Assembly (NCBI GenBank): GCA_022801925.1
Contig: JAAWTG010000017.1
Coordinates: 1 to 49,655 of the forward strand
Reading direction: 5' to 3'
Source of the DNA: Clostridia bacterium
Lineage (GTDB): Bacteria; Bacillota; Clostridia; RUG12999
Length of the DNA stretch: 49,655 nucleotides
How positions within the stretch are numbered: position 1 is the first letter of the stretch; each line of letters begins with the position of its first letter. Positions 7,492-36,235 of this stretch are shown piece after piece. The notes under the pieces are model-generated. The model saw only the letters and a program-made list of their open reading frames with translations. It was not told where the DNA came from and ran no database searches. A program made the translations under genes and the position numbers.

Positions 7492-7860
7492 ATGTTTGAT
7501 TTGGGTTTAATGCTAAAAGGGCTAAGAAAAGAAAACAATTATACTCAAAAACAAGTTGCCAAAAAATTAAATGTATCTGTTACCACAGTAGGACGCTGGG
7601 AGAGTAATTATAAACTTCCGTCAACTGAACACCTGATTGATTTATCCGTATTATATAATGTGCCGTTGAATTATTTAGTAGGTCGGGAGAAAAAAAAGGC
7701 AATCGTAATAGAGCATCTCACCAAAAATCAACAAGAATTGATTACAATGCTGGTTTTAGAATTTGAAAGCGCCCATGATAACAAGAGCAGAGAACTAACA
7801 CAACGGCAACAAACTATTATTAACTTAATATTTAAAGAATTTCATAATCAACATGACTGA
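7492..7860 (+). CDS. XRE-family helix-turn-helix regulator
   Basis: 122-residue regulator. An N-terminal Cro/CI-type HTH (residues about 5-62: LKGLRKENNYTQKQVAKKLN, VSVTTVGRWESNYKLPSTEH, VPLNYLVGR) is followed by about 60 residues predicted helical (LTKNQQELITMLVLEFESA...LTQRQQTIINLIFKEF) without a recognised domain. The GRWE/P-xxxxL pattern is typical of plasmid and phage-type repressors. The start follows TTAGGGGATG. It has its own hairpin terminator at about 7982-8030. It is not overlapped by other genes; the neighbouring XRE genes are not close paralogues by eye. Confidence 0.87.
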   Translation: MFDLGLMLKGLRKENNYTQKQVAKKLNVSVTTVGRWESNYKLPSTEHLIDLSVLYNVPLNYLVGREKKKAIVIEHLTKNQQELITMLVLEFESAHDNKSRELTQRQQTIINLIFKEFHNQHD

Positions 7861-7981
7861 AAACCTGGTTTGTACCGATAGACGAAAGCACAAAAATGGG
7901 TAATAAAACCGACGGATTTTTAAAGTTCCCAAATAGGGTATTGAACTACTTTCTAGTTTCAAATTTTAAAAAACAAAAATT

Positions 7982-8030
7982 TACCATGATACAACCATTT
8001 CATACAGTTGGCTATATCATGGTATTATTT
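7982..8030 (+). terminator. Hairpin with T-rich tail after second XRE gene
   Basis: TACCATGATA (7982-7991) pairs perfectly with TATCATGGTA (8015-8024); inner CAAC/GTTG also pair. TTATTTT follows. It probably terminates the second XRE transcript, though it sits 120 nt after the stop. Confidence 0.55.
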
Positions 8031-8117
8031 TATGCGTTGAAATAGCATATAACACAAATCCAGAGTTTCCGCGTTTTTTAGTACCACATAATGCTACCAT
8101 AAAGGTGAGGTGGTAAG

Positions 8118-8324
8118 ATGTATTTCAGACATATTAAAGAATTAAGAATAGATTCAGATAAAACACAACAAGAGCTTGCCGATTATTTACATTGTAATCG
8201 GCAGGTCTATGCCCGTTATGAAAATGGGATTCGTGAAATTCCCATTTCCATGGCGATAAAACTGGCGGATTATTATAACGTGAGTTTGGATTACTTGGTT
8301 GGACTTACGAATCGCAAGGAATGA
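8118..8324 (+). CDS. Minimal XRE-family helix-turn-helix regulator
   Basis: 68-residue protein that is almost only a Cro/CI HTH (IKELRIDSDKTQQELADYLH, RQVYARYENGIREIPI, MAIKLADYYNVSLDYLVGL). AAGGTGAGGTGG is a strong ribosome binding site just upstream. Such minimal HTH proteins are common as repressors in mobile islands or as antitoxin/phage-type switches. It lies 110 bp before the toxin-antitoxin-like locus, but no operon link is visible. Confidence 0.88.
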   Translation: MYFRHIKELRIDSDKTQQELADYLHCNRQVYARYENGIREIPISMAIKLADYYNVSLDYLVGLTNRKE

Positions 8325-8422
8325 TATTTACACAGGAGGATAAAGAATCGGTTGATAAAAAAATATAATATATATGTGTAGTAAAAGGCATAACAAGATA
8401 TCCGTGATTTTCTCTTATATAA

Positions 8423-8506
8423 AATGATTACTCTTGACAATCGCATTCATTTTGTGTATAATAAAATATAGAAAAGGCAAGACCTCAAACGGTTATGCCA
8501 AAACGT
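8423..8506 (+). repeat. Promoter/leader repeat, copy 1 (copy 2 at 8769-8850)
   Basis: A block of about 80 bp covering a consensus promoter and the hairpin GGCAAGACC...GGTTATGCC is nearly identical in two direct copies (8423-8506 and 8769-8850), differing at only a handful of positions. The copies diverge completely right after GCCAAAA. Confidence 0.9.
8434..8462 (+). promoter_or_regulatory. Consensus promoter of the plus-strand small RNA
   Basis: Perfect TTGACA (8434-8439), 17-bp spacer, perfect TATAAT (8457-8462). There is no ORF with a ribosome binding site downstream; a terminator follows within 90 bp. Confidence 0.88.
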
Positions 8507-8551
8507 TATTATTTTAAAATAACACGGCTTTGACGGGGCGTGTTATTTTTT
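8469..8551 (+). ncRNA. Putative antisense antitoxin RNA
   Basis: Predicted RNA of about 80 nt starting near 8469 and ending in the T run at 8545-8552. Its 5' half forms a hairpin (8476-8484 with 8491-8499: GGCAAGACC against GGTTATGCC). Its 3' half is the terminator stem 8516-8526/8539-8549 and is fully complementary to the 3' end of the convergent peptide mRNA. The peptide mRNA leader carries the same hairpin elements (GGTAAGAC and GGTTATGCC), so arms could be exchanged between the two RNAs. This fits an antisense regulator of a type I toxin, like the convergent RNA I/RNA II pair of the Enterococcus par locus. Function is inferred; promoter, hairpins and overlap are seen directly. Confidence 0.65.
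8516..8549. terminator. Shared terminator of the convergent RNA pair
   Basis: 11-bp perfect stem AAAATAACACG/CGTGTTATTTT (8516-8526 with 8539-8549), 12-nt loop. Strong T run on the plus strand; weaker T-rich end on the minus strand. It overlaps the stop codon of the 22-residue ORF. Confidence 0.8.
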
Positions 8552-8611
8552 TATGGAAATTACCAAAAGTAATAGAATTATCATAAACAATATTATGTAT
8601 TCCTTATCCAT
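8543..8611 (-). CDS. 22-residue hydrophobic peptide, putative type I toxin
   Basis: A tiny ORF that standard gene callers miss. The peptide begins MDKEY, continues with about 15 almost uninterrupted I/L/V/F/M residues (IILFMIILLLLVISI) and ends KK: a charged N-terminus, one membrane span and a basic tail, as in Fst-, TxpA- and BsrG-type toxins. The ATG is preceded by AAAGGGGGTGAT with 5-nt spacing, a near-ideal ribosome binding site. The mRNA would start near 8683 from a perfect consensus promoter, giving a leader of about 70 nt, and end in the terminator shared with the opposing small RNA. Length 22 residues fits the small end of Fst-family toxins, but I see no specific sequence match. Toxicity is inferred. 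Confidence 0.7.
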   Translation of the reverse strand: MDKEYIILFMIILLLLVISIKK

Positions 8612-8689
8612 AAGCTATCACCCCCTTTCCCGGAGATGATGGCATAACCGCCCAGCTTTTACACCGTTTTCAGTCTTACCTTAGAATAT

Positions 8690-8718
8690 ATTATATCCGA
8701 ACTTTAAATCCATGTCAA
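8690..8718 (-). promoter_or_regulatory. Consensus promoter of the toxin-like mRNA
   Basis: Minus strand: TTGACA (8718-8713), 17-bp spacer, TATAAT (8695-8690), both hexamers perfect. It is followed by GGTAAGAC, AAAACGGT and GGTTATGCC, the same landmarks as in the opposing RNA. Confidence 0.88.
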
Positions 8719-8779
8719 GATATATACCAAAAAATATTTATACCTTCATTCCTTTCTATTTTTATATAAAATCATAGTC

Positions 8780-8808
8780 TTGACAGTCACATTCATTTTG
8801 TGTATAAT
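8780..8808 (+). promoter_or_regulatory. Consensus promoter of the orphan antitoxin-like RNA
   Basis: Perfect TTGACA (8780-8785), 17-bp spacer, TATAAT (8803-8808), nearly identical to the promoter at 8434-8462. Confidence 0.87.
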
Positions 8809-8814
8809 AGAATA

Positions 8815-8903
8815 TAGAAAAAGGCAAGACCTCAAACGGTTATGCCAAAATCGGGTTTTGTAAGATAGCCCTAACTTTGGTCGGTGGGGGCTATCTTACT
8901 TTT
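8815..8903 (+). ncRNA. Orphan second copy of the antitoxin-like RNA
   Basis: Same promoter, 5' end and GGCAAGACC...GGTTATGCC hairpin (8823-8846) as the RNA at 8469-8551, but a different 3' half. A 12-bp perfect terminator stem GTAAGATAGCCC/GGGCTATCTTAC (8860-8871 with 8888-8899) is followed by TTTTA. The opposite strand shows no hydrophobic ORF with a ribosome binding site: frames there stop after 5-8 codons. It may be an orphan antitoxin, a decoy, or a relic whose toxin was lost. Confidence 0.6.
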
Positions 8904-8934
8904 ATCGCAAGTGTCATCAAAAAATATCAATCAT

Positions 8935-8974
8935 AAAAAATCAGCATATCGCAAATGCGATATGCTGATTTTTT
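8935..8974. terminator. Bidirectional terminator after the HAD gene
   Basis: 19-bp perfect inverted repeat (8935-8953 with 8956-8974; core TCAGCATATCGCA) with A6/T6 ends, directly after the HAD gene stop on the minus strand. Confidence 0.92.
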
Positions 8975-8977
8975 ATA

Positions 8978-9646
8978 TCACAGTCCCAGCAGGGCGGGGA
9001 CTTCCAGCAGCGAATCCACCACTGCGCTCACGCCCGGAACACTGTCAAACAGCGTTCGGTCGTGCATGGAGTTGACGGCAATCACTGTTTGCACGCCTGC
9101 TGCACGCGCGGCTTTCACGCCGGACGCCGCGTCCTCCAGCACCACTGCGTCCTCCGGTTTCACGCCCAGCCGCTTCGCTGCAGCAAGATAGATATCCGGA
9201 TAGGGTTTGCCGCGAAACGACCCGTCCGCATAGACGATATGCTCCGGCGAAAACCAACGGGAAAGCGCGAAATGCTCCAGATAAAACTGCAAATTTTCTG
9301 CGTCGCTGGACGTTGCAATCGCAATCGACCATTTTTCTGCCACTAATCTGTCCAGCAACTCCTCTGCGCCCTCCGCCAAATGAAATGATGCAGGGTCTGC
9401 CAAACACAGCTCCCGATAGAACGCTTCCTTCTCCCGCCCGATTTCGTCCGCCTGCGCCGCCGTATATTTGCCCGGCTGGAGATAGTCCAAAATCAGTTCA
9501 TTGGTTTTGCCCAGCACATGCCGGTGCAGTTCCTCCTCGTCCAGCTTTCTGCCGCACAGTTTTTCCGCAAACACACGCCACGCCTCATGATGTTTTTCTG
9601 TGTCCCAAAACAGCGTGCCGTTAAAATCAAATATGACCGGTTTCAT
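8978..9646 (-). CDS. HAD-family phosphatase (beta-phosphoglucomutase-like subfamily)
   Basis: 222-residue haloacid-dehalogenase superfamily hydrolase, subfamily IA. Motif I is VIFDFNGTL with nucleophile Asp7; the cap domain covers about residues 16-85; motif II is ATSSD (111-115); motif III is the lysine in RGKPYPDIY; motif IV is VVLEDAASG. Motif I reads DxN instead of DxD: the second aspartate, usually the acid/base, is Asn9. A DFNGT version recurs in a Firmicute subgroup of uncharacterised HAD proteins, so it need not be an inactive copy. Substrate unknown, probably a small sugar phosphate. It lies downstream of rqcP, where B. subtilis has yabP/yabQ. Confidence 0.88.
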   Translation of the reverse strand: MKPVIFDFNGTLFWDTEKHHEAWRVFAEKLCGRKLDEEELHRHVLGKTNELILDYLQPGKYTAAQADEIGREKEAFYRELCLADPASFHLAEGAEELLDRLVAEKWSIAIATSSDAENLQFYLEHFALSRWFSPEHIVYADGSFRGKPYPDIYLAAAKRLGVKPEDAVVLEDAASGVKAARAAGVQTVIAVNSMHDRTLFDSVPGVSAVVDSLLEVPALLGL

Positions 9647-9685
9647 GCCCTGTCCCCTTCCTGTTTTCTCCTATTTTGCCCTGTC

Positions 9686-9925
9686 TTACAGCACCTCATA
9701 CAGCGACGACGCCGCGTCCTTGCCCACATGGTCTTCCACTGCCAGCACGCGCACCTTTAGCGTCTTTTCACCCAGCCGAATTTCAATCTCGTCGCCGATT
9801 TTGACCTTATCGCCCGCTTTAGCTGTGTTTCCGTTGATAGAAATTCGTCCGCCGCTGCACGCTTCATTCGCAACGGTGCGGCGTTTAATCAGGCGCGACA
9901 CTTTTAAAAATTTGTCGATTCTCAT
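9686..9925 (-). CDS. rqcP: RqcP (YabO), S4-domain RNA-binding protein of ribosome quality control
   Basis: 79-residue S4-domain protein opening MRIDKFLKVSRLIKRRTVAN and containing GGRISINGNTAKAGDKVKIGDEIEI, which matches YabO/RqcP of Bacillus. Known family role: with RqcH it drives poly-alanine tailing of nascent chains on stalled 50S subunits. I use ATG 9925, preceded by GCAGGAGGAC, rather than the upstream start that adds six residues. Gene order flippase-mazG-hup-rqcP matches the yabM-yabN-yabO region. Length and motifs are complete. Confidence 0.93.
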   Translation of the reverse strand: MRIDKFLKVSRLIKRRTVANEACSGGRISINGNTAKAGDKVKIGDEIEIRLGEKTLKVRVLAVEDHVGKDAASSLYEVL

Positions 9926-9951
9926 GCAATCGTCCTCCTGCAATTGTTCAC

Positions 9952-9995
9952 AAAAAAAGCAAGGGCAAGTTTCTTTTTCAAAAAACTCCCCTTGC
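9952..9995 (-). terminator. Terminator of hup
   Basis: GCAAGGG (9959-9965) pairs with CCCTTGC (9989-9995), with an inner A/T-rich stem; on the minus strand a run of seven T follows. It lies between hup and rqcP, so rqcP must be reached by read-through or its own promoter. Confidence 0.75.
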
Positions 9996-10013
9996 CGTCT
10001 TTTTTGGTTTTAA

Positions 10014-10295
10014 TTATTTGCCTGCTACAGCATCTTTCAGCGCTTTGCTTACTTTGAATGCCGGTACATCAGCAGCCGGAATAGTGATCCGTTTGGAAGG
10101 ATCCTGCGGGTTGATACCCTGTCTTGCTGCTCTATGTTTGGTTTCAAATGTACCGAAACCTACCAGAGAGATTTTGTCTTTTGCTACCAAAGTTTCCTGT
10201 ACGGTTTCAATGAAAGCGTTCAGTACTTTTTCAGCGTCTTTCTTTGTTACTTCAGCTTTATCAGCCATTTTTGCTACCAGTTCTGCCTTATTCAT
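10014..10295 (-). CDS. hup: HU-family nucleoid DNA-binding protein
   Basis: 93-residue HU/IHF-family histone-like protein: MNKAELVAKMADKAEVTKKD start, GFGTFETKHRAARQGINPQD DNA-binding arm, and TIPAADVPAFKVSKALKDAV end. It bends and compacts DNA as a dimer. A TTGAAA/17/TATGAT promoter lies 45 bp upstream and GAGGAGGATG precedes the ATG. Placement between mazG and rqcP is usual in Clostridia. Confidence 0.97.
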   Translation of the reverse strand: MNKAELVAKMADKAEVTKKDAEKVLNAFIETVQETLVAKDKISLVGFGTFETKHRAARQGINPQDPSKRITIPAADVPAFKVSKALKDAVAGK

Positions 10296-13013: not shown

Positions 13014-13042
13014 TTGACCTTATACTATTATTATGTTACAAT
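13014..13042 (+). promoter_or_regulatory. Promoter of the RelA/SpoT-domain gene
   Basis: TTGACC (13014-13019), 17-bp spacer, TACAAT (13037-13042); start codon 50 nt downstream. Confidence 0.75.
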
Positions 13043-13091
13043 CAAAATGGTAAGAACCGGTCTGCCGGACATACAGAAAGGAATTCTTCTC

Positions 13092-14612
13092 ATGGAACTT
13101 CGTATCTTTGAATTTATCGGCAAAACTGCCGATTACATAGAAAACATGCGCGATGAACTGGAGGCAATCAAACTGGAACTGGAACTCTATTTCAACCAGA
13201 TTCTGGCAGGGTCTGACGAGGGATTCATCAACATTTCCTCACGTATCAAAGAGACTGCCAGCCTCAAGGAAAAAATCATCCGCAACAGCTATTATAAAAA
13301 CTATGACGAACCGCAGCAGCTCATTGACAACCTCTCCGATTTAATCGGTATCCGGCTGGAATGCCGTTTCATTGACGATGAGTACCGGCTCTACAAGTTG
13401 CTGCTGAAATATTTCACCAAAATCAACGAGGACGGGTATTACTATAACCAGTTCAATCCTGCTATCTCCCTTGCGCTGGAGGAAAAACAGCCGCAAACAC
13501 AGCGCAACGGTTTTACCATTTACAAAATCGACGGATTGTATCAAAAAAACGGACGGCGGCTGCGGTTTGAACTGCAAATCAAAAGTCTGGTCAATTTGTT
13601 TTGGAGTGAAATTGAGCACAAAATTATCTATAAAAACGACGCGTATGTGCTGGCGGACGGTTTCCTGAAGGACATTATGGTGACGGTGAAAAACATTTTC
13701 ACCATGCTGGACAACCAGCTTCTCATTTTATATAAACGGTTCAATTCCGGCACCACTATCGGCACGGCGCAGCAGCGGGAAAACATTCGCGCGCTTTTGT
13801 CCAAAAGCATTTTTGACATATTTGCGCACAAGATGCGGCAGGATATTGGATTCATTGTGGAATTCCGTTCCTCCTGCGATTTGATTATTGATTATATTAT
13901 CATGAAAAGCAATGTGGACGACACTGCTTCCTATAATGCGTTGATGGTGGATTTGCTGGAACGGCTGCAAACGATTGCGGCGCGGCAAATTGAATTCAAC
14001 AGCGAAATCACGTTTGAACGTCCCTACCGGCTGGAGAATCCGGTGGAAAAACGGCTGGGCGATACCATCGCTTCCTTAATTAATGTAGACTACCGCTGGC
14101 ACCTATTTTTCACCATTTTGTTTGAACTGGAGCCGGGCAACAATGCGGAGGATTTTGAAAACTTCATCACCTTTCTCACGCAGCGTTTTGCTGCCAGCCG
14201 CCCGTTCCACAAGCTGCACAAACTGTTTCATGAAAACTTGACGCACGACATGGAATCCAGTTTGCTGATGAAAATGGCAGATTGTTTTGAAACGTATCAA
14301 AACATTGATTTCATACACCAAGACCGCATTGACATGATTCAAAAAGTGTTTGGCGACATTGTCAAGTTCATTTGCATGAGCGTGCGCACTGAAAAAGAAT
14401 GGCAGGCGTGCCGCACCATTTTTCTGGACATGTTCGCGCTCCGTCTGGGCGCTATGCTGGACATGAAAACAGACGCGGTACTGCTGGAGGAATGCGTTAA
14501 CGCCATTGAAACAAGCATGTTGCGTCCGCGTATTCGTCTCCATCTGCTGGACTATATCACGGAAAATGTGACCACAATTGACGGCGTGGTGCGGCATTTG
14601 GATAAAAAATAA
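13092..14612 (+). CDS. RelA/SpoT-domain protein with large uncharacterised C-terminal region
   Basis: 506-residue cytosolic protein. Residues about 45-185 resemble the (p)ppGpp synthetase domain: SSRIKETASLKEKIIR (49-64, ATP-side basic residues), LSDLIGIRLECRF (81-93, the D-x-x-G-x-R motif) and RFELQIKSLVNLFWSEIEHK (158-177, with the catalytic-type Glu160 before Gln162). The guanine-binding G-loop is atypical: instead of GYxSIH the best candidate is NGFTIYKIDGLY (139-150). No HD hydrolase, TGS or ACT domain. Residues 200-506 are helical without a recognised domain; small alarmone synthetases normally end near 200-260. ATG 13092 follows AGAAAGGAA. It may make an alarmone, another nucleotide, or only bind one. 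Confidence 0.8.
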   Translation: MELRIFEFIGKTADYIENMRDELEAIKLELELYFNQILAGSDEGFINISSRIKETASLKEKIIRNSYYKNYDEPQQLIDNLSDLIGIRLECRFIDDEYRLYKLLLKYFTKINEDGYYYNQFNPAISLALEEKQPQTQRNGFTIYKIDGLYQKNGRRLRFELQIKSLVNLFWSEIEHKIIYKNDAYVLADGFLKDIMVTVKNIFTMLDNQLLILYKRFNSGTTIGTAQQRENIRALLSKSIFDIFAHKMRQDIGFIVEFRSSCDLIIDYIIMKSNVDDTASYNALMVDLLERLQTIAARQIEFNSEITFERPYRLENPVEKRLGDTIASLINVDYRWHLFFTILFELEPGNNAEDFENFITFLTQRFAASRPFHKLHKLFHENLTHDMESSLLMKMADCFETYQNIDFIHQDRIDMIQKVFGDIVKFICMSVRTEKEWQACRTIFLDMFALRLGAMLDMKTDAVLLEECVNAIETSMLRPRIRLHLLDYITENVTTIDGVVRHLDKK

Positions 14613-14712: not shown

Positions 14713-14967
14713 ATGACATATCACTACAAGCCCAAGGGCGTTTGTTCCAAAGAAATGCAGCTTGATATTCAAGACGGTATTTTAAAGGAAGTGAAAATTG
14801 TTGGCGGCTGCGACGGAAACCGCCAAGGCGTATGCGCTTTGGTCAAAGGTCTTCCTGCAAAAGACGTGATGGAAAAACTGCGCGGTATTGACTGTCGCGG
14901 TCGCGGAACGTCTTGCCCCGACCAGCTTGCAAAAGCCATTGCGGAATATTTGGAAACTTCTGAATAA
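14713..14967 (+). CDS. TSCPD-domain protein (TIGR03905-type)
   Basis: 84-residue protein belonging to the small TSCPD-domain family: MTYHYKPKGVCSKEMQLDI start, GGCDGNRQGVCALVKGL middle, and the name-giving TSCPDQLAKAI near the C-terminus (residues 68-78). Four cysteines (11, 33, 40, 61/70 region) could bind metal. The same domain is fused to the end of some ribonucleotide reductases; the stand-alone function is unknown. GAAAAGGAGCG precedes the ATG. The sulfatase gene starts 38 nt after its stop. Confidence 0.9.
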   Translation: MTYHYKPKGVCSKEMQLDIQDGILKEVKIVGGCDGNRQGVCALVKGLPAKDVMEKLRGIDCRGRGTSCPDQLAKAIAEYLETSE

Positions 14968-15004
14968 TCCGCTGAAACTACTAAAAAAAGGAGATGTTGT
15001 TACA

Positions 15005-16522
15005 TTGGATAAAAAAAGACAAGTTATATTTATCATGACAGATTCTACACGTTTTGATATGGTGGGCTGTTATGGCAACCCTGATATGCATACGCCGAAC
15101 CTTGACCGGCTTGCGGCGGAAGGGATTCGTTTCGAGCGCGCGTATAGCTGCCAGCCGGTATGCGGTCCGGCACGCAGCGCTATTTTCACCGGTCTGTATC
15201 CGCATTCCAATGGCAGTTTCACCAACAGCGTTGCGCTTGGCGACAATGTGAAAACCATCGGACAGCGTCTGCGTGACCACGATATCCACACTGCCTATAT
15301 TGGCAAATGGCATTTGGACGGCGGCGACTATTTCGGGCTGGGGCGCTGCCCCGATGGTTGGGACAGCGATTACTGGTATGATATGAAATGCTATCTGGAC
15401 GAACTCACACCAGAGGAACGTCTCAAATCGCGCGACCCGAACACCAACAAAGAACACATTGACGCGGCGTTTACCTATGGACACCGTGTGACGAACCGCG
15501 CTCTGGATTTTCTGGACAAATTTAATGATGAAGATTTCTTTTTGGTGGCGTCCTATGACGAACCGCATGACCCCTATCTTTGTCCTGAACCGTATGCGTC
15601 CATGTTTGAGGACTATGAATTCCCCAAAGCGCCCAATGTTTGGGATACATTGGAGGGCAAACCGGAATATCAAAAGGCATGGGCGGGCGCACGCCGCAGC
15701 GCAGACCGCGACGCCGTGAAACTCACGCCAAGTTATTTTCTGGGCGCAAACGCCTATATTGACGCGGAAATCGGACGTATTTTAGATAAAGTGAACGAAG
15801 TGGCGCCGGACGCGCTGGTGATTTTCACCTCCGACCACGGCGACGCATTAGAATCGCACTGTCTCTATGCAAAGGGTCCGGCGTTCTATGATGAAATCGC
15901 CCGCATTCCGCTGATTATTAAAGGCGGCGAAGCAGGGAAAGTCAGCAGCGACCCCATTTCCCACATTGATTTGCTGCCGACCGTGATGGACTACATGGGA
16001 TTGCCGCGTCCGCAGTGGATTCAGGGAAACAGTATTTTGCCGACTGTACAGGACGTTTCCACCCGCGTCAATGACGTGGTGTTCACGGAATTCACGCGCT
16101 ACGAAGTAGACCACGACGGATTCGGCGGATTCCAGCCCATGCGCAGCGTGACGGACGGGCGCTACAAACTTTCCATTCATTTGTTAGACCCGATTGACGA
16201 ACTTTACGATTTGCAGAGCGACCCCTATGAAATGAAAAATCTGATTTTCAGTGAAACACACACAGAAATTCGCAACAAGCTGCATGACAAACTACTGAAT
16301 TGGATGAACGAAACGCGCGACCCCTTCCGTGGATACTATTGGGAACGCCGTCCGTGGCGCGATGACGCTGTGACGCCTTCCTGGGACTACACAGGATACA
16401 CTCGTCAGCGGGAGCATGAAGAATATGAACCGCGGCAGCTTGATTACTGTACCGGGCTTGAGATGACGCAGGCGTCACGCCCCAAAGAACGGCTCAAACC
16501 ACTCAGTTCGAGGGAAGACTAG
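15005..16522 (+). CDS. Cytoplasmic sulfatase (formylglycine-dependent, anaerobic-type CxPxR)
   Basis: 505-residue sulfatase of the alkaline-phosphatase superfamily. FIMTDSTRFDMVGCYGNPD (9-27) carries the metal-binding Asp13, and PVCGPARSAIFTG (51-63) the cysteine Cys53 that becomes formylglycine. GKWHLDGG and FTSDHGD provide further active-site and metal residues. Cysteine at this site requires a maturase (radical-SAM anSME type in anaerobes); none is in the window. No signal peptide: the reading frame begins at TTG 15005, 11 nt after AAAGGAG, directly with DKKRQVIFI. Desulfation therefore happens inside the cell, on imported oligosaccharides. Together with the DhuI-type isomerase downstream this fits sulfated glycosaminoglycan breakdown, but the substrate position is unknown. 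Confidence 0.9.
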   Translation: MDKKRQVIFIMTDSTRFDMVGCYGNPDMHTPNLDRLAAEGIRFERAYSCQPVCGPARSAIFTGLYPHSNGSFTNSVALGDNVKTIGQRLRDHDIHTAYIGKWHLDGGDYFGLGRCPDGWDSDYWYDMKCYLDELTPEERLKSRDPNTNKEHIDAAFTYGHRVTNRALDFLDKFNDEDFFLVASYDEPHDPYLCPEPYASMFEDYEFPKAPNVWDTLEGKPEYQKAWAGARRSADRDAVKLTPSYFLGANAYIDAEIGRILDKVNEVAPDALVIFTSDHGDALESHCLYAKGPAFYDEIARIPLIIKGGEAGKVSSDPISHIDLLPTVMDYMGLPRPQWIQGNSILPTVQDVSTRVNDVVFTEFTRYEVDHDGFGGFQPMRSVTDGRYKLSIHLLDPIDELYDLQSDPYEMKNLIFSETHTEIRNKLHDKLLNWMNETRDPFRGYYWERRPWRDDAVTPSWDYTGYTRQREHEEYEPRQLDYCTGLEMTQASRPKERLKPLSSRED

Positions 16523-18171: not shown

Positions 18172-18247
18172 GGGGATATAGCTCAGCTGGGAGAGCGCGT
18201 GGTTCGCAATCACGAGGTCAGGGGTTCGATCCCCCTTATCTCCACCA
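18172..18247 (+). tRNA. tRNA-Ala(CGC)
   Basis: 76-nt cloverleaf including encoded CCA. Acceptor GGGGATA/TATCTCC contains the G3:U70 pair that identifies alanine tRNAs; D arm GCTC...GAGC; anticodon stem CGTGG/TCACG with loop TTCGCAA (anticodon CGC, codon GCG); T arm AGGGG-TTCGATC-CCCCT; discriminator A. It has its own promoter and a 15-bp terminator. Confidence 0.97.
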
Positions 18248-27881: not shown

Positions 27882-30800
27882 TTATTGATATGTTTTAAAT
27901 ACCGGCACCTTTAATTCAAACCACGCATCTCCGGCGATAACACGCGGCGTAAATGTACTGTATTTACCTGTTTTGTTCTGAATCTGTCCTGTTTTCGGGT
28001 CTTCATACCGCGGGAAATGCGTCATCTCCGCACCTTTGTCCGTCACAACAAATCCCGGCGGCATTTGCACCGTAACAGTGCTTTGGTCAACATCCAGAAC
28101 CTGATAGCCGAAACCGGAAGTGTCGCCGAACACAGAATGTCCCCACAGACCCTTCACGGATTCCGGCAGACTGCCGCGCACCTTAATCTGATTGGGAACA
28201 CTCACGCCGTCATCGCTGCCCTGCGTTCCCAGCACTTTAAACAAATAATCTGTTCCACCCTGTGCCTGCACTGTTTCTGCATCAATACTGCCCGCGCCAT
28301 AGAAATAAGTCCAAACCACTTTCCCGCTGTCTTTTTCTTTGCGCAAAGCGGCATAGTTTCCTGAAAAGGTCATGCCCTCAAACTGACGCTCTTTGTTGTC
28401 ACCGCTGACATAAACATAGTCCACACTGTCTCCCAAATCCACTTTTGCTACAATGCTCATGGGGTCTTTATCTTCGGGCTGCAACCATTCAATTCCTTTT
28501 ACACGTGCAGTTTCTCCGCTGCGGAACGCTTCATAGACGCCGCCGAACATGGTGGTATCATTTGGGGACACATCCACACGCTGATACATATGCATACCCG
28601 GATATTTATCTTTATCCGCCACCACGTTATTGACGCGCCGCATGGTCGGAAATTCGGAAAATGCTACCGCTGTACCCGGATTTCCTTTCATGAACACATT
28701 CAGCGTTGTACCGCTGTCTTTTCCGCGCCAGCTAAAGGAATAGTCCTCATTTGTTTCTACGCCGCGCGGCGACGTCAGCGCCGAATCCGCCGCCACAATA
28801 CCGCCGGAACGCCCAATGGCTGTCAACCAATTTCCTATTTTGCCGGACGCCGCTTCCGGTAAATTCAAATCTGTAGTGAAATCCACATCTTCTTCCTCTA
28901 CCTGTCTCAGGAAGTTTTCATGGATAGTGCCGCCTTTCATGCGCTGAATGTCCAAAGTATAAGAATGGTTTTCATCCGTTGCAATCATCATCACCAAACG
29001 GCGTTTGAAATCAATTCCCTCCGGCGCCGTCATTGGCTGACTGCCTTCCACAAGCTGAATCTGCTTATCGCTGCGGCTTCCATCGTCATAGCCCAGCAGA
29101 TTCGGTCTGGTGGTACGCGTTCCCAAAGCGCCGTAACTCGGTGTTTGCGGCGAAGATATCCAAGAACAATTATGCAGATAGGCATTCATGTGAATATACC
29201 GGTTCGCTGCCGGTGTAAAGACATAACCGCCGTCCGGCAGAACCTCCATGCCCGCACTCCACATAGAAATTCCCAAAAAATCACCGTGATAATGTCCTGC
29301 ACTATAGGGCAAACCTTCACTCAAAATCGGGAATTTCAAATTGATTTGCTGCGCCTCTTCGGTGTTGCCATGTTTCATATTATAAAATCCGAAATGTCCC
29401 ATTTCCAAATTTTTTAAATATTCCTCTTTAATGGGTGCGTCCACTGTGTTAGCTTTTGTGTAATGCGTGTCATGCAGCGCAACGCTGGAACCGTCCGGAA
29501 ATTTAAAAATCTTGTTCATGTTCATCATTTTTTGCTGTATCGGCCAGCGGTCATGCATATCCACGCTGCCGTCCAACACGAGACCAAGCTGTGTATCCAC
29601 ATAGCCATAGGGGTCTCTGTAGAGGTTAATCACATTGGCAGCCTCCGAACCGTTTCCGGCAAACTGCTGTCCATAGGAGAATGTTCCTTCGCTCCACATA
29701 CCGTCCGCGTGCCATTCGTAGCCGGTCATACAAGTATCCAGCGCACTGATGACCTGCCGCATACGGTCGGGGTCATTGACAATCAGCGCAATCCCCGCCG
29801 CGTTTTTCAGCCAGTAAGCGCCGCGGTTATCATAATAACTGCCGGCATTGAGGTTAATGCTGTAATCAAACGCTTTCAAAAACCATTCTTCCACCGCTTT
29901 GCGCGCATCTGTACCTGTTTGCTCGCTGAGTTCCTCCCAATAAGGAGAATTATAGACACGGTCATAGGCAAAGACGCAAAGACCCGGCAGAGCAGTGGAA
30001 CGTTTCCCGAAATCGGTAAGTTCTATATTCGGAATTTTGTCATAGCCAAGCGCACCATGATACAGCATGGTAATGACGCGCTTGGCAATTTCTTCATCCT
30101 TGCCTTCGCCAACATTACTTTCATCATAATTAATACTCATTACCGCTGCGACCCGTTCATAACCGGGACGTGCCGAATAATCCGCAAGTCCTGCTGTCTG
30201 AGTATCCACCAGCACACCAATGTCTTCTAACTCCATTTTCATATAGGGCTCTGCTTCTGCCGCACGCGCTGCCGCATCTTGACGGACAATCGTACGGTGG
30301 CTGGATACCAGCATCTGCTGGATAGCTGTATAATCAAAGGGATGCACAATATCACTGCTGTTTGGTTTAAAATAACCTTCAGCAAATTCGTCTGCAATTT
30401 CTTTCGGCAGGGTTTCCCGGTTGCCCAGCGTGACCAAACCGCGCGGGTCCCACGTTACCTTTTGTCCCAGCGCTTCCGCTACCGCACGGACAGGCAAAAA
30501 GGTTCTGTTGTCTTTGGTACGCGCCGCCGCGTCTATCGTCTGCACTTTCCCATTTATCCGTATCCGGTCGCTGCCAATGGTAACTTCCACCGTGTCGCCG
30601 TCTTTTTTTACCGTTGCCGTTTGACTGTCTTCGTCCCAGTCCACCTGTGCGCCCAACGCCTCCGCCAGAAAACGCACCGGCAAAAAAGTACGGTCGTCTT
30701 CTTCAAACGGCATCACCGCCGCATTGTCAGGGTCAATCCGTTTTTCTTCTCCTTTAACATACGCGCGCGGGCGTCCGATGTGCAGCAATACAGACTCTGC

Positions 30801-30941
30801 CGCTACTGCTTGTGCCGTCTCTGTTTCCTCAACCCGAATCTCTTCCGAGGATTCCGGCTGAACATCCTCCGCTGCTGATACAGGCAGAATACTCAGGCAA
30901 AGGCAGAGTGCAAATAATATCCATTTATTCCATTTCGCCAC
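27882..30941 (-). CDS. Heparinase II/III-family protein with N-terminal stalk domain
   Basis: 1019-residue exported protein. Signal peptide about 1-24; a Glu/Ala-rich linker; a copper-amine-oxidase-N 'stalk' domain at about 56-173 made of two units (FLPVRFLAEALGAQVDWDED and FLPVRAVAEALGQKVTWDP); then the heparinase-like catalytic region. Catalytic landmarks parallel the first paralogue: WHADGMWSEGTFSYGQQ, LPYSAGHYHGDFLGISMWSA, LPDGGYV and NRYIHMNAYLHNCSW. The likely reaction is beta-elimination of a uronic-acid glycan. The start is GTG (30941) with AGAAAGGA upstream; no in-frame ATG gives an intact signal peptide. It is last in a minus-strand series after two SLH proteins and an oligosaccharide ABC importer, pointing to cell-surface glycan use. 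Substrate not determined. Confidence 0.84.
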   Translation of the reverse strand: MAKWNKWILFALCLCLSILPVSAAEDVQPESSEEIRVEETETAQAVAAESVLLHIGRPRAYVKGEEKRIDPDNAAVMPFEEDDRTFLPVRFLAEALGAQVDWDEDSQTATVKKDGDTVEVTIGSDRIRINGKVQTIDAAARTKDNRTFLPVRAVAEALGQKVTWDPRGLVTLGNRETLPKEIADEFAEGYFKPNSSDIVHPFDYTAIQQMLVSSHRTIVRQDAAARAAEAEPYMKMELEDIGVLVDTQTAGLADYSARPGYERVAAVMSINYDESNVGEGKDEEIAKRVITMLYHGALGYDKIPNIELTDFGKRSTALPGLCVFAYDRVYNSPYWEELSEQTGTDARKAVEEWFLKAFDYSINLNAGSYYDNRGAYWLKNAAGIALIVNDPDRMRQVISALDTCMTGYEWHADGMWSEGTFSYGQQFAGNGSEAANVINLYRDPYGYVDTQLGLVLDGSVDMHDRWPIQQKMMNMNKIFKFPDGSSVALHDTHYTKANTVDAPIKEEYLKNLEMGHFGFYNMKHGNTEEAQQINLKFPILSEGLPYSAGHYHGDFLGISMWSAGMEVLPDGGYVFTPAANRYIHMNAYLHNCSWISSPQTPSYGALGTRTTRPNLLGYDDGSRSDKQIQLVEGSQPMTAPEGIDFKRRLVMMIATDENHSYTLDIQRMKGGTIHENFLRQVEEEDVDFTTDLNLPEAASGKIGNWLTAIGRSGGIVAADSALTSPRGVETNEDYSFSWRGKDSGTTLNVFMKGNPGTAVAFSEFPTMRRVNNVVADKDKYPGMHMYQRVDVSPNDTTMFGGVYEAFRSGETARVKGIEWLQPEDKDPMSIVAKVDLGDSVDYVYVSGDNKERQFEGMTFSGNYAALRKEKDSGKVVWTYFYGAGSIDAETVQAQGGTDYLFKVLGTQGSDDGVSVPNQIKVRGSLPESVKGLWGHSVFGDTSGFGYQVLDVDQSTVTVQMPPGFVVTDKGAEMTHFPRYEDPKTGQIQNKTGKYSTFTPRVIAGDAWFELKVPVFKTYQ

Positions 30942-30997
30942 TATCTGTCATCCTTTCTCCGAATCGACGGGCGCTTTGCGCCCGCCATCCATTTTTT

Positions 30998-33900
30998 CTA
31001 CGCCTGTACCTTTTTCAATACCAAACAGAGAATTTTTGCCGCTTCCGCACGTGTTGCATCATTTGCCGGATTCAATGCGCTTTTGTCATCGCCGCTGATG
31101 ATGCCTGCTTCTGCAAGCTGTGACATTGCTTTATATGCATATTCTGCCACATCTTCTGCATCTGTGAACTGATTCAGATTTCCTGCTTCGCCAATGTTCT
31201 TATCCGCTATTTTTGCTGCGCGGGCGACCAAAACCGCCATATCCTGACGGCTAATCGGTGCGCCTGCTCCAAAACTGCCGTCTCCCATACCCTGTGCCAC
31301 GCCCAGCGCTGCCGCTGTTGCCACATAGGTATAATACCAGTCATTTTCCTGAACATCGGTGAATGCCGCCGCCGGCGTCTCCGTCTGCAATCCGAAAATT
31401 TCGACAATCATCTTCAAAAATTCCGCACGGGTAACAGCCCCTTCCGCGTCAAATACACCGTCTTGTTTTCCGTTGACAATGCCTTTTTCGCCCAGGCTTT
31501 CAATATATTCTTTTGCCCAATATTCATCCGCTACATCCTTAAACAATCCGCTTGGCTCTATCACCGGCGGCGTGACAGGTGTTATCACCGGCATTTGAAC
31601 CGCCGGAACCTGAATGGTACTGGTTTTGTCATTTCGTCCGCCGCCAATACCGCCGCCGCTGCCGCCGGTATTACCGTTGTTTCCTCCGGTACTTTTCAGA
31701 ACAGTAATCGGCGGGAATTCTTTTTGCAGCGATGTTTCTCCGACTGTAACCGTTGCTGTCAACACCGCATTTTGATCTGTGCTGCCGCGATGTACAATTC
31801 CTGTGTCGCTCACCGCCGCCTTGTTGTCAGACTCCCATGTAATCACAGCTCCATGCAATCCCTTTGTCGGCAGCGCCAAATCTTCCGTTACCGCATTTAA
31901 GTTTCCGCCAAGTGTAATGGCTGCCAACGCTTCTTTTGCTCTTCCCAAATCGTCAAATCGGATTTCAAAGGTTGCCATCTTCGGTGCGGCAGAAGCGCCT
32001 GTGAACCGAAGCCGCACATAACGCCCGCTGACCGGTTCAAAATCAACGCTTTGCTGCGCGCCGATTGCAGCGCCTGTATGTGCTGTTTTCCATGTATTTC
32101 CGTCTGTGCTCACTTCAATGACATAGCCTGTTACGGCGTTTCCGTTTTCTATCAGAACAGCATTGGACACCTTTTGTTCGCTGCCCAAATCAATCACAGC
32201 GGAAGACGTTGTGCTGCCCGCCTGCCAATAGGTGAATTTATTTCCATCCACCAGCAACGCTGCATTTTCTCCGTCTGCAGCGACTGTCTTTTCATATGCC
32301 AAATCGCCGTCCGCATGATACCCTTCCGACACAATTACGCGCCGCACTGCCGTAATCGTCTGCGGTCTGCTGTCTGTGACGCTGTAGGTAATTTCATAAG
32401 TACCTACTGTGTCGGAATCAACCGTTCCCACCACTCTCACCTGTTTTGTTAAATCTCCATCTTCTTCGTCTATCGCCGTATAGCCCGGTTCCACATAGGT
32501 TTCGCCGCGCAGCAGCTTCATTTCCGCATCGCCTTTGAGGGTGATAACCGGTGATTTATCCGCCACTGAGAACAATTCAATCTCCTGAAGTCTAATGTTC
32601 GTGTCGCGTGTAAAACCTACTTCGACATATCGTCCCGTCACCGGCGCCGCAAAAGCAACATCTTTACTGTACGTTCCATAGGTAACAATCTCATCGCCGC
32701 TGCCTTCAAACGCCTCTGTATGGATTGGTGTAAACGCATCACCCGTCATGGAAATTCGCAGCGCCACGCCATCCTTTCCGTTTGTACCGCTGCCATAAAC
32801 GCGCGCGCCTTCCAATGTGCGAACCGTTCCCAAGTCGATTATTATTGTCGACATATGCGGAAAAGCAGTTCTTTCATTATAAGTTGTTATACCGCCGCCG
32901 GCGTCTGTATAGGCGCCGTTGGTCAATGCAGTTAACGAAGCGCCCGAATAAGATGCGGCGCTGGTACCGTTTGACTGCATCGGATTGCCGCCCACATAGG
33001 CACGGTATGCCACATTGCCGACACGCGGTAAATTATAGCTTGCCGCTTCTTCTCCTGCCGTGCCGGCGCTGTCTTTTGGCGTCACACGGAATTGCAAATA
33101 TTTTTTCCATTCATTGCTGGTCGGTGTGAAAGTGCGTTTTGTCGCGCCCTCTATGGCAGTAAACGGTCCGTTCGGATTGCTTGCACTATACCACTGGTAC
33201 GTGCTTTCACCCTCCGCCTGCGCTCCCGCATAGAGATAGTCGCCCATCATTGTCTGCGCACTGTCGCAGCCCGCCTTATTGCTGTTTGGTGCAGAAATAA
33301 TTGTAACCGAGGAAGCTGTCGGTACTGCCGGCGCCGCTGCCAAAACAGGTCCTACTGCCATTGTCTTAACACGCGGATTGCCGCTCGCTCCCTCCATCCG
33401 CACTTTTACTGCAATATATTTTCCAACGAGGTTGCTGGGAATGGTATAGGTTGCAGAACCCTGCTGCAGACGTGTTTCCGTTTTATTACCGGGTGAATTT
33501 GCCACTTCCGGCGTATCCTGCTGTAACCAGTCTATCTTGCTGACGATATTGCTTTCTGCATGATTCGGGTCAAACAGGTCATATTCAAAGGTGAGTGTTT
33601 CCCCCACCACCGGCGAACCGGTAATCCGCATTCCAAACAAAGAGGGTTTTACCGTTTTCGCCACTTCCGGTTTTGTAACCGTCACGGCAATTTCAGCAGT
33701 TTTTCCCTCATAAGTCACTGTCACAAGCGCCGTACCGATCTGCGTTGTATCTGCCGCATAGGTCGCCTCCGCGTTTGCAATCGTCTTTTCACTGCCGTCC
33801 GAATAGCTTGCCGTAATCACAATTTTGTCCGCCAACGCGGTTTTCAGTCCTGCCGCGTCCGTCCCTTGCGACACTTTAATGTCGCTCACGCCCTGCGCTT

Positions 33901-36214
33901 TTTCCACTGTAATACCTGTCAAGGTCACTACAGTTTGCACATTGACGGAAACAGTTGCTGTTTTCCCGCCATAGGAAACCGTTACATCTGCCGCACCGGT
34001 TGCAGACGTATCTGCGCTATACGCCGCGTCTGCATTGGCAACGGTCTCCGTAGAACCATCGGAATAGCTTGCCGTAATCACAATTTTGTCCGCCAGCGCA
34101 GTTTTCAGTCCTTCTGCATCTGTGTTCTTCAGCACTCCGATAACGCCTACGCCTTCTGCTTTATCCACTGTGATACCGGTCAATTCTTTTTCTTCCACAA
34201 TCACTTCCACCGTGGCAGACTGTCCGCCATAGGAAACCGTTACATTGACGGTTCCCGCCGCCGAAGTAATCGCGCTGTATTCCGCGTCCGCCCCATCGAT
34301 GGTTTCTGTGGAGCCTCCTTCATAGGTCGCCGTAATCACAATTTTGTCCGCCAGCAGGTCTTTGAGTCCTGCCGCGTTTGTGTTCAGCGGTACTCTGATA
34401 TCGCTCACGCCCTGCGCTTTTTCTACTGTAATGCTCTGCAGTTGCGCCGCTTTGACTTTTACTGAAACTGTAGTTTGTGCGCCGCGGGCAGAAACCGTTG
34501 CTGTCACTGCATCGCCTGCCGTTGAAGTATCCAGTGTATATGTCACTGCATCTGCCGGAACTGTAACCGGGTCTCCGCCATCATAAGCTGCTGTCACTGT
34601 CACATTTTCTGCCAGATATTTCTGCACTTCTGCCGCTGTCGCATCCTTTTCCACTTCCAGTGTTACGCCGTCTTTTGCCGCTGCCGCAAGTGTCGGCGCC
34701 GGTGCTGTTTCCTGTACAAACGCTTGAAGTTCAGCGATATACGGACCTCCTACACGTGTAAAGCGAATTTGTACATAACGTCCCTCTACCGGGCTTTGAA
34801 AGGTTACCGCCTTACCAAGCGGAACTGTTTTTGTTAAAAAGTCCTTCAAAAGAGGCTGTGCTGATTCCGTTGTTTGTGCCGGATACCAATATAGCCCATC
34901 TTGCGAAGTATAGAAATCCACGGTATTTGCAGCATTTCCCTCTTTATTAACCGCCAGCTGTACTCCTGTTATCGTTTGCAACTTGCCAAGGTCAATTGTC
35001 GTTGTATCAACATGATAATCGTGTCTAAAAAGATATATCGCTCCGCCATCACCGACAGCGCCATTACTGATTCCATTGGTCAGAACCTGCATATTTGCTC
35101 CTGACTGCAAAGCATTGTTAGCTTTATCCGTTAATCCTGCCTCAGTTGCCATCGCCAGATAAGCAGCGTTTCCCGCCTTGGGTCTGTTAACAGAATCTGC
35201 CGCAGTTCCTGTCTCACCTGCCTCATCCTTCGGTGTGACGGTAAATTTCAAATATTTCCCGCGGTCTGCTTCTTTCACGGTATATTCCCGCTGTGTTGCA
35301 CCTTCAATCGGTGTAAATCCTGTGGTTTCATTTTCTGAAACAGACCACTGATAAACGCTTTCGCCCTCTGCACCCGCGCCGACATAGTAGTATTCTCCGC
35401 GCAGCGTTTGTCCAATGTTGGCGCCGATGCCGTGTCCGCCATTCTGTGCCACAGAAGAAATGGTGACGGTGTTGACGGACGGCGCTGTTGCTTTTTCTGC
35501 CAGAATCGGTCCGATTGTAACGGTTTTTCTGTCCCAGCCTGCTTTGGAAAGAACGTCCATACCCGGCAGTGCAATTGCCGCGTCAATATATTTACCTGCG
35601 TCATCTGCCTGTACCGTATATTTTACGCCATTGTTCTTTCCCTGCACCGCAAATGCCGCACCATCATAGCTAGCGTAATTGACGCCAAATGCATTGGGAA
35701 CACGATGCCAAACCACTAAATTATCTATAGCGGTCTTTTTCGCCTCTTCTGTCGCCCCCAGCACGTTGTCCGGGTCGTCCAGCGCATAGTGCAATTCCAA
35801 TTCTTGTCCTACCACCGGTGTACCTTCAATCCAAAGTCCGTAAACGATGGGCGGCCGTTTTTTGTCCGATATCTTAATACCTTCAATGCTCGCAGTAGCG
35901 CCGTCATAGGTAATTGTACATGACTGCGCAGCAGCAGCCGCTGTTGTATCCATTGCAACGGTCGCATCTGCCCAGTTCACTGGCGTTACATTTCCGCTGT
36001 CATCGGTCGCTGCAAGGGTATACAGACCACTTAAAACGCTGCGGATTTCATCTTCTGTTGCACCTGTGAATACTGTTAATACTTTATCATAAGCAGTATT
36101 TTTTTTGGTCGCCGCAAGGCTTGCTGTTGCTGCGCTCGCCGGAACCACAAACAGCGTCGCGGTCATCATTACCGCCAGCATAAGCGGCAATAGTTTTTGA
36201 ATTCGGTTTTTCAT
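30998..36214 (-). CDS. Giant S-layer-homology protein with discoidin and Ig-like repeats
   Basis: 1738-residue exported surface protein. Signal peptide about 1-29; two Ig-like modules with GTPVVGQELELHY and ISSV...QTLRGEYYYVGAG...YQWSVSE; discoidin (F5/8 type C) module 1 at about 348-498; four to five 75-80-residue Ig-like repeats (LTGITVEKAQGVSDIKV, KTALADKIVITASYSDGS) at about 515-850; a second copy of the PVVGETLTFEY/YQWYS modules at about 858-1065; discoidin 2 (1066-1213); a DUF5011-type domain (RGETYVEPGYTAIDEEDGDL, 1223-1295); discoidin 3 (1301-1418); an atrophied Ig domain; a Gly-rich linker; and three SLH repeats (about 1556-1738; FKDVADEYWAKEYIES first). SLH repeats bind pyruvylated wall polymer; discoidin domains often bind glycans. 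No catalytic domain seen, so probably a glycan-binding scaffold or adhesin. It starts 21 nt after the previous SLH gene. Confidence 0.9.
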   Translation of the reverse strand: MKNRIQKLLPLMLAVMMTATLFVVPASAATASLAATKKNTAYDKVLTVFTGATEDEIRSVLSGLYTLAATDDSGNVTPVNWADATVAMDTTAAAAAQSCTITYDGATASIEGIKISDKKRPPIVYGLWIEGTPVVGQELELHYALDDPDNVLGATEEAKKTAIDNLVVWHRVPNAFGVNYASYDGAAFAVQGKNNGVKYTVQADDAGKYIDAAIALPGMDVLSKAGWDRKTVTIGPILAEKATAPSVNTVTISSVAQNGGHGIGANIGQTLRGEYYYVGAGAEGESVYQWSVSENETTGFTPIEGATQREYTVKEADRGKYLKFTVTPKDEAGETGTAADSVNRPKAGNAAYLAMATEAGLTDKANNALQSGANMQVLTNGISNGAVGDGGAIYLFRHDYHVDTTTIDLGKLQTITGVQLAVNKEGNAANTVDFYTSQDGLYWYPAQTTESAQPLLKDFLTKTVPLGKAVTFQSPVEGRYVQIRFTRVGGPYIAELQAFVQETAPAPTLAAAAKDGVTLEVEKDATAAEVQKYLAENVTVTAAYDGGDPVTVPADAVTYTLDTSTAGDAVTATVSARGAQTTVSVKVKAAQLQSITVEKAQGVSDIRVPLNTNAAGLKDLLADKIVITATYEGGSTETIDGADAEYSAITSAAGTVNVTVSYGGQSATVEVIVEEKELTGITVDKAEGVGVIGVLKNTDAEGLKTALADKIVITASYSDGSTETVANADAAYSADTSATGAADVTVSYGGKTATVSVNVQTVVTLTGITVEKAQGVSDIKVSQGTDAAGLKTALADKIVITASYSDGSEKTIANAEATYAADTTQIGTALVTVTYEGKTAEIAVTVTKPEVAKTVKPSLFGMRITGSPVVGETLTFEYDLFDPNHAESNIVSKIDWLQQDTPEVANSPGNKTETRLQQGSATYTIPSNLVGKYIAVKVRMEGASGNPRVKTMAVGPVLAAAPAVPTASSVTIISAPNSNKAGCDSAQTMMGDYLYAGAQAEGESTYQWYSASNPNGPFTAIEGATKRTFTPTSNEWKKYLQFRVTPKDSAGTAGEEAASYNLPRVGNVAYRAYVGGNPMQSNGTSAASYSGASLTALTNGAYTDAGGGITTYNERTAFPHMSTIIIDLGTVRTLEGARVYGSGTNGKDGVALRISMTGDAFTPIHTEAFEGSGDEIVTYGTYSKDVAFAAPVTGRYVEVGFTRDTNIRLQEIELFSVADKSPVITLKGDAEMKLLRGETYVEPGYTAIDEEDGDLTKQVRVVGTVDSDTVGTYEITYSVTDSRPQTITAVRRVIVSEGYHADGDLAYEKTVAADGENAALLVDGNKFTYWQAGSTTSSAVIDLGSEQKVSNAVLIENGNAVTGYVIEVSTDGNTWKTAHTGAAIGAQQSVDFEPVSGRYVRLRFTGASAAPKMATFEIRFDDLGRAKEALAAITLGGNLNAVTEDLALPTKGLHGAVITWESDNKAAVSDTGIVHRGSTDQNAVLTATVTVGETSLQKEFPPITVLKSTGGNNGNTGGSGGGIGGGRNDKTSTIQVPAVQMPVITPVTPPVIEPSGLFKDVADEYWAKEYIESLGEKGIVNGKQDGVFDAEGAVTRAEFLKMIVEIFGLQTETPAAAFTDVQENDWYYTYVATAAALGVAQGMGDGSFGAGAPISRQDMAVLVARAAKIADKNIGEAGNLNQFTDAEDVAEYAYKAMSQLAEAGIISGDDKSALNPANDATRAEAAKILCLVLKKVQA
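33665..34670. repeat. Tandem Ig-domain coding repeats
   Basis: The coding DNA repeats at about 230-250-bp intervals: GTAATCACAATTTTGTCCGC occurs four times (about 33813, 34072, 34331 and their surroundings), with TTGACAGGTATTACAGTGGA-like starts on the coding strand. Near-identity in places suggests recent duplication or gene conversion, and copy number may vary between strains. Confidence 0.75.
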
Positions 36215-36235
36215 GATGGGTTTCTCCCCTTTCTC

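Follow-up and report, generated by a model that had tools for sequence, protein, structure and literature searches.

A RelA/SpoT-type gene with two domains

The window, i.e., the whole 49,655-nucleotide stretch of DNA from Clostridia bacterium that was analysed (assembly GCA_022801925.1, contig JAAWTG010000017.1), contains a complete gene for a two-domain synthetase of the RelA/SpoT type (Table 1). The initial annotation had recognised a RelA/SpoT-domain protein at this locus, and Pfam confirmed this with a RelA_SpoT match at an E value of 8.6e-16 and 58.7 bits (cut-off 27). Besides RelA_SpoT, no Pfam family scored above its own cut-off in the 506-aa protein; specifically, Pfam detected no HD, TGS, or ACT domain, in agreement with the earlier claim that the accessory domains of Rel are absent. 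The existence of full-length homologues in many families together with dN/dS values of ~0.03 excludes that the frame is a chance ORF. Upstream of the gene, we noticed consensus matches to a promoter and a ribosome-binding site; the promoter scan that returned the former gave 6 sites compared with 3.4 +/- 1.9 in shuffled sequences.

Table 1. Coordinates in the window of the synthetase gene, its putative upstream signals, and the regions of the encoded protein
Feature	Position	Strand	Basis or remark
Promoter-like TTGACC-17 nt-TACAAT, with TG ahead of the second hexamer	13014..13042	+	Consensus match only
Putative ribosome-binding site AGAAAGGA, 9 nt ahead of ATG	13075..13082	+	Consensus match only
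Two-domain RelA/SpoT-type synthetase gene	13092..14612	+	ATG at 13092, stop codon ends at 14612; complete, 506 aa
SYNTH (RelA_SpoT) domain, residues 50-183	13239..13640	+	Pfam PF04607
ATP-side basic motif R51-x-K53-x3-S57-x2-E60-K61-x2-R64	13242..13283	+	Family alignment
D83-L-I-G-I-R88 (D-x-x-G-x-R; first catalytic Asp)	13338..13355	+	Family alignment
Altered G-loop Q133-P-Q-T-Q-R-N139-G-F-T-I-Y-K145-I-D147	13488..13532	+	HMMER register, family alignment
Catalytic Glu segment E160-L-Q-I-K-S165	13569..13586	+	Family alignment
Helical stretch, residues 186-225	13647..13766	+	Family profile still aligns RelP C-terminal helices
Predicted all-helical C-terminal domain, residues 226-455	13767..14456	+	Alignment and low-confidence models
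C-terminal extension, residues 456-506	14457..14609	+	Among 28 aligned members, common only to the window protein, L035, and L036

Based on Pfam, the gene is flanked upstream by a divergent polysaccharide-transport/MurJ-like gene and MazG and downstream by a TSCPD gene and then a sulfatase gene. The small TSCPD gene (14713-14967, plus strand; E 3.2e-28) lies 100 bases downstream of the synthetase gene and is overlapped by the sulfatase frame (14888-16522) at its mechanically assigned start; the real sulfatase start is probably later. Elsewhere in the window, a tRNA-Ala with anticodon CGC (18172-18247, plus strand) is the only RNA family match above the gathering score, and three large genes lie in a row on the minus strand (27882-38965). 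Two of these genes (1738 and 909 aa) encode S-layer homology domains, which in the 1738-aa protein are accompanied by Ig-like and F5/8 type C domains, while the remaining gene (1019 aa) encodes a copper amine oxidase N-terminal-type domain.

Besides this gene, RelA_SpoT is encoded once more in the window genome (2.9 Mb, 96 contigs), by a 747-codon long Rel gene on a different contig. Long Rel differs from the window protein in having HD, TGS, and ACT domains. The solved structures nearest to the window protein are those of RelP/RelQ enzymes (6ewz, E 4.1e-6; 5f2v, E 1.3e-5), and a profile of the family matched 2be3 in the PDB with an E value of 1.6e-10. As in RelP/RelQ (YwaC/YjbM), the family combines a SYNTH domain and the catalytic motifs with stand-alone chromosomal genes; however, RelP/RelQ consist of a single SYNTH domain of ~210-260 aa compared with 506 aa here, and the match of the window protein to the NCBIfam model for YjbM (RelQ) was weak (33.9 bits; cut-off 320). 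With the family profile, similarity to RelP/RelQ runs to approximately residue 222. Therefore, the C-terminal half of 300 residues that the initial annotation had described as unassigned is better delimited as an extra domain of about 280 residues, for which no convincing Pfam or PDB match was found.

The ATP side is conserved while the acceptor loop is altered

For residue counts, we used all 34 family sequences with a full frame (window, L004, L035-L061, L066, L096, L097, L134, and L135), while the gene of G002, which is split across two contigs (L005 and L032), was excluded. The Arg, Lys, Ser, and Lys residues of the ATP-side motif (R-x-K-x3-S-x3-K) are kept in 34/34 sequences, and the last Arg (R64) is Lys in 3 of the 34 (L051, L060, and L096). 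The catalytic D83 is present in all 34, as is the E160/Q162 pair (E-x-Q), while R88 is replaced in three sequences (L055, L134, and L135). The motifs that had been described as intact in the window protein, i.e., the ATP-side motif, D-x-x-G-x-R, and E-x-Q-I, are indeed so; in the catalytic Glu segment, RelP/RelQ have R-T where the window protein has K-S. In FaRel2, the ATP adenosine is described as stacking on R64 and R95, with the phosphates meeting K66, S70, K74, and R77 (PMC11782079); by analogy, R51, R88, K53, S57, K61, and R64 of the window protein would be the counterparts of these ATP-contact residues.

The initial annotation also stated that the GYxSIH guanine-binding signature is replaced, and this holds in part. 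In the HMMER register, which pairs the window loop with G-Y-R-S-Y-H of a RelQ-type PDB enzyme, the positions of G-Y-x-S-x-H read N-G-F-x-I-Y-K/R-x-D in the family, whose overall loop pattern is Q-P-x-x-Q-K-N-G-F-E-I-Y-K-I-D-G. Three positions are changed in the window protein (Y to F, S to I, and H to K), but N-G is retained and Phe fills the aromatic position. The register is supported by the member L097, the loop of which reads N-G-Y-R-S-Y-R-I-D; in the MAFFT alignment of the SYNTH domain, the loop is shifted by a few columns owing to the different length of the next hairpin. Across the 34 sequences, Q133, P134, N139, G140, and D147 are identical; position 141 is Phe in 29, Tyr in 2, Leu in 2, and His in 1, and position 143 is Ile in 27. 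At position 145, where the His would be, we found Lys in 25 and Arg in 9 sequences and His in none. This His is kept in 48/48 synthetases that are neither family members nor one of the two divergent relatives (35 rows of the RelP/RelQ type, of which 3 are PDB pieces, L025, 3 long Rel, 4 PDC-S33-like proteins, 4 of another type, and L021), and the two divergent mobile relatives (L065 and L067) have Lys at this site in an I-Y-K loop. Altogether, these alignments show a remodelled acceptor site that is maintained across the family.

According to the published motif comparison, the syn3 form S-x-H goes with guanosine and G-x-N with adenosine, and guanosine-type enzymes have A-V-R in syn2 and I-R in syn4, compared with R-Y-T and Y-H in adenosine-type enzymes (PMC12226406). 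The syn3 motif of the family is neither S-x-H nor G-x-N, while its syn2 (G-x-R) and syn4 (Q-I-K) are nearer to the guanosine type than to the adenosine type. The altered G-loop could represent a change in specificity, i.e., the protein would be an active pyrophosphokinase that uses an adenine or other nucleotide or an RNA end as acceptor. In line with this alternative, three acceptor-side positions have changed together and are held in 34/34 sequences with the ATP side untouched, an invariant Asp has been gained two residues after the changed His site, and SAS enzymes using adenosine nucleotides or tRNA-CCA are described (PMC11782079, PMC12226406). Nevertheless, we regard a non-guanine acceptor as unlikely because the loop change differs from the adenosine-type G-x-N (PMC12226406), syn2 and syn4 look guanosine-like, and the carrier genomes have neither a second HD_4 hydrolase above the cut-off nor, at 32 loci, a toxin-antitoxin arrangement.

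Phe, the usual residue at the aromatic site of the G-loop in the family, occupies the position at which Y128F is reported as an impairing substitution in FaRel2 (PMC11782079). This change, the replacement of His by Lys or Arg, and the loss of R88 in 3/34 sequences would also fit a catalytically weak or silent member that has been retained as a nucleotide or RNA sensor, and inactivity has been reported for Rv1366, a mycobacterial SAS (PMC7591505). However, D83 and E160, for which a pure sensor would have no use, are kept in 34/34 sequences, and we find this explanation quite improbable.

The family forms a clade outside RelP/RelQ and is patchily distributed

In a tree of SYNTH domains with 84 rows, from which the partial long Rel L126 and L130, which is nearly identical to L067, had been left out, the 34 family rows grouped with support of 89/92. 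Together with L065 and L067, they formed a clade with support of 100/99, apart from the RelP/RelQ clade (98/92). When the G-loop was masked and the four long-branch rows (L065, L067, L021, and L025) were removed, support was 100/100 for the family and 95/93 for RelP/RelQ. Thus, masking the G-loop did not alter the placement of the family as a single clade outside RelP/RelQ. The phylogeny that the initial annotation had proposed as a check places the family, with its conserved alternative G-loop, outside RelP, RelQ, and long Rel. The trees include three long-Rel rows, and deeper placement is limited by long branches and by the lack of toxSAS and DsRel references; in PDB alignments, RelP/RelQ came first and CapRel appeared only at an E value of about 0.06.

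Using the C-terminal half (306 residues) as the query, we identified the family in 32/391 genomes of the class, representing 20/222 genera. The distribution is patchy, since 0/6 genomes (G003-G008) representing the remaining genera of the family to which the window belongs were positive. When genomes were drawn evenly from the phylum, 4/398 were positive, two of them outside the class, and one scan of genome contigs returned 3 loci, all from the same genus as the window. A full-length carrier (38% identity over 88%) is Acetoanaerobium noterae; its 2.6 Mb record (NZ_CP154629.1; L066), the gene table of which has 4 features, is labelled a plasmid but is probably a chromosome. At 29/29 loci first extracted, the SYNTH domain was accompanied by the C-terminal part. 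The 28 members of the main alignment (A1) are 30-43% identical to the window protein, and other full-length aligned members are about 440-510 aa long. Altogether, the gene is a stand-alone chromosomal gene that is present in a minority of Clostridia.

Possibly, the family corresponds to cloRel, which Atkinson et al. 2011 named as a subgroup of SAS in Firmicutes and marked in the Clostridia row of their table 2, with the main text providing neither a sequence nor a length or motif (PMC3153485). We found no other paper on cloRel, and literature searches covering Clostridia, SAS families, and SAS enzymes with two domains listed no description of the family; this comparison did not extend to the 2020 scheme that divides SAS into 30 subfamilies.

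The C-terminal domain is predicted to be helical

The most conserved residues of the C-terminal domain are K238, D242, N331, and W336. Searching its ~230 residues against Pfam gave no family in >2/28 members (best E 0.011), and nothing below an E value of 0.099 was found among PDB sequences. A likeness to Sir2 at residues 377-442 was discarded, being below the cut-off (E 0.097) and absent from other members. The fold prediction that had been proposed for the C-terminal part suggests, together with the alignment, an all-helical fold, at low confidence, as the mean pLDDT of both AlphaFold models is about 45. There was no sign of internal repeats (off-diagonal hhalign probability <=2.5%), and no TPR family was among the Pfam matches shown for the window protein and the 28 C-terminal domains. 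Comparison with the C-terminal domains of seven other synthetases gave hhalign probabilities of <=0.44% each, although these single-sequence comparisons have low power.

In its layout, the window protein resembles DsRel (SAS-TPR), including the 410-aa Tde-SAS of Treponema denticola, in which a SYNTH domain is also followed by a helical C-terminal domain (PMC10434055). This TPR domain is reported to slow synthesis by Tde-SAS (PMC10434055). By contrast, the window protein lacks a TPR match in Pfam, and its family has an altered syn3 motif, while all Syn1-4 motifs are described as conserved in Tde-SAS (PMC10434055).

Both halves are under purifying selection and neighbours are lineage specific

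Between the window gene and that of the same-genus genome G001, 41 codon differences are synonymous and 5 are non-synonymous, giving a dN/dS of 0.027 for the whole gene, 0 for the SYNTH part, and 0.043 for the C-terminal part. The two gene pieces of G002 gave values of 0.029 and 0.043. Both halves of the protein are therefore under purifying selection.

When about 8 kb on either side of 32 loci was surveyed, using frames from a simple script, the commonest neighbour cluster (ABC ATPases by reading) occurred at 13/32 loci in scattered positions. The second cluster occurred at 10 loci and lay directly upstream in 9, all in genomes of one family; by reading, the gene directly upstream at those 9 loci is peptidyl-prolyl-isomerase-like. 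Among the 32 loci, no partner gene was common to all lineages.

All 32 carrier genomes have a long Rel (split over two contigs in G001). In a search for hydrolases with PF13328 alone, the only HD_4 match above the cut-off in the 32 carriers was the HD domain of Rel, and two further matches fell below the cut-off (G070 and G385). A RelP/RelQ-type match of at least 100 bits in a short frame was found in 13/32 carriers compared with 19/40 non-carriers, which were chosen from relatives rather than randomly; based on these numbers, we rejected the idea that the family replaces RelQ.

Relatives on mobile elements and other two-domain synthetases

The divergent relative L065 (locus 7569-10203) is a 508-residue synthetase on a viral contig with a DndB-like (DGQHR) gene directly after it. 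L067 (2857-5044) and L130 (6001-8188) are near-identical loci on Lactococcus plasmids, at which a gene for a 382-residue synthetase is followed by a DndB-like (DGQHR) gene. A divergent synthetase and a DndB-like gene could possibly form a mobile two-gene system, of which these loci represent two independent cases. The L065 and L067 synthetases had no match in PADLOC, and their partners matched DndB/DpdB models weakly. Hhalign detected no relationship between their C-terminal halves and that of the window family; the alignment of the whole window protein with L065, which extends to residue 402 with a probability of 98.4%, is read as driven by the SYNTH domain because the C-terminal part alone gives nothing. 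When 391 genomes of the class were searched with a profile of the DndB-linked synthetases, the best 32 matches listed were the window family.

Matches to PDC-S33, a PADLOC candidate of ~350 aa that resembles the window protein in having a SYNTH and a C-terminal domain, are encoded on plasmids or phages (L128:4941-6380, L129:4794-5858, L131:5001-6011, and L151:2986-4059); these four keep S-x-H, and their C-terminal domains are not detectably related to that of the family. A third type of Clostridial synthetase (L136, L137, L140, and L141; 284-296 codons) forms one clade in the masked tree (100/100) and has the loop G-Y-R-S-V/I-H, with F-W-x-x-I-E-H-x-x-x-Y-K replaced by G-Y-G-E-I-D-H-x-x-x-Y-S or a variant.

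Toxic SAS enzymes (toxSAS: FaRel, FaRel2, PhRel, PhRel2, and CapRel) share with the family the SYNTH fold and changes on the acceptor side, and CapRel has a fused C-terminal domain (PMC11782079). Given this common layout, the window protein might be a fused toxin-antitoxin and phage sensor of the CapRel kind, in which the C-terminal domain would hold a toxic SYNTH domain until infection. The two mobile relatives from the wider clade with an adjacent DndB-like gene (Pfam DndB, E 4.9e-18 and 1.6e-12) and the PDC-S33 matches among other two-domain synthetases in mobile elements (4/8 proteins scanned) point in this direction, and the former make a role in defence possible for the wider clade. For the window family itself, we consider this role doubtful on several grounds. 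The window protein has no PADLOC match even at E 10, and the family profile has no match to solved CapRel or FaRel2 at E 10. Unlike toxSAS, the family has no conserved adjacent partner, and its surroundings are of a housekeeping kind conserved within lineages, as with the one gene directly upstream at 9 loci. Both halves are under purifying selection. In viral contigs, no homologue of the full protein was found and the family profile matched one distant contig only, and 0/17 matched phage records cover 80% of the family protein.

Proposed function and significance

Our best explanation, to which we assign a probability of about 0.5, is that the gene encodes a chromosomal, stand-alone alarmone synthetase that uses a guanine acceptor via an altered site and has a helical C-terminal regulator; activity, acceptor, regulatory role, and removal of the product by Rel are what we infer. 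The SYNTH domain would bind ATP as in other SAS enzymes and move pyrophosphate to the 3'-OH of an acceptor, most likely GMP, GDP, or GTP, in a pocket where Tyr-Ser-His is replaced by Phe-Ile-Lys/Arg followed by the invariant Asp. The helical C-terminal domain may keep the enzyme low until some signal frees it, comparable to the TPR domain of the Treponema SAS-TPR, and the product would join the pool cleared by long Rel.

This explanation is favoured by the RelA_SpoT match above the cut-off, the catalytic residues kept in 34/34 sequences, dN/dS values of 0.027-0.043, and the presence of both domains at 29/29 loci. The guanosine-like syn2 and syn4 and the long Rel in 32/32 carriers, the HD domain of which is the sole HD_4 match above the cut-off, argue against a radically different product. 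Further points in favour are the lineage-specific neighbours, none of which occurs at >13/32 loci, and the helical brake of Tde-SAS as a precedent for a regulatory C-terminal domain (PMC10434055). On the other hand, this explanation is weakened by the replacement of S-x-H by I-x-K/R in most of the family, by the usual Phe at the site of the impairing Y128F substitution in FaRel2 (PMC11782079), by the missing R88 in 3/34 sequences and models with a pLDDT of about 45, and by the two divergent mobile relatives that have the I-Y-K loop and a DndB-like gene next to them. A more far-reaching idea, which we think rather improbable, is that the product is not (pp)pGpp, the loop N-G-F-x-I-Y-K/R-x-D being a third acceptor code in addition to S-x-H for guanosine and G-x-N for adenosine, that a mobile branch working with a DndB-like protein has this code as well, and that one ancestor gave rise both to chromosomal signalling enzymes and to phage-related, DndB-linked enzymes.

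In the RelA/SpoT superfamily, the choice of acceptor divides alarmone makers from toxins, and motif swaps have not converted one into the other (PMC12226406). With an intact ATP side but another acceptor loop, this conserved natural family lends itself directly to tests of acceptor choice. To our knowledge, the stress network of Clostridia has mostly been studied through Rel and RelQ only, and the family adds to it a two-domain synthetase that, in the reading proposed here, would be regulated.
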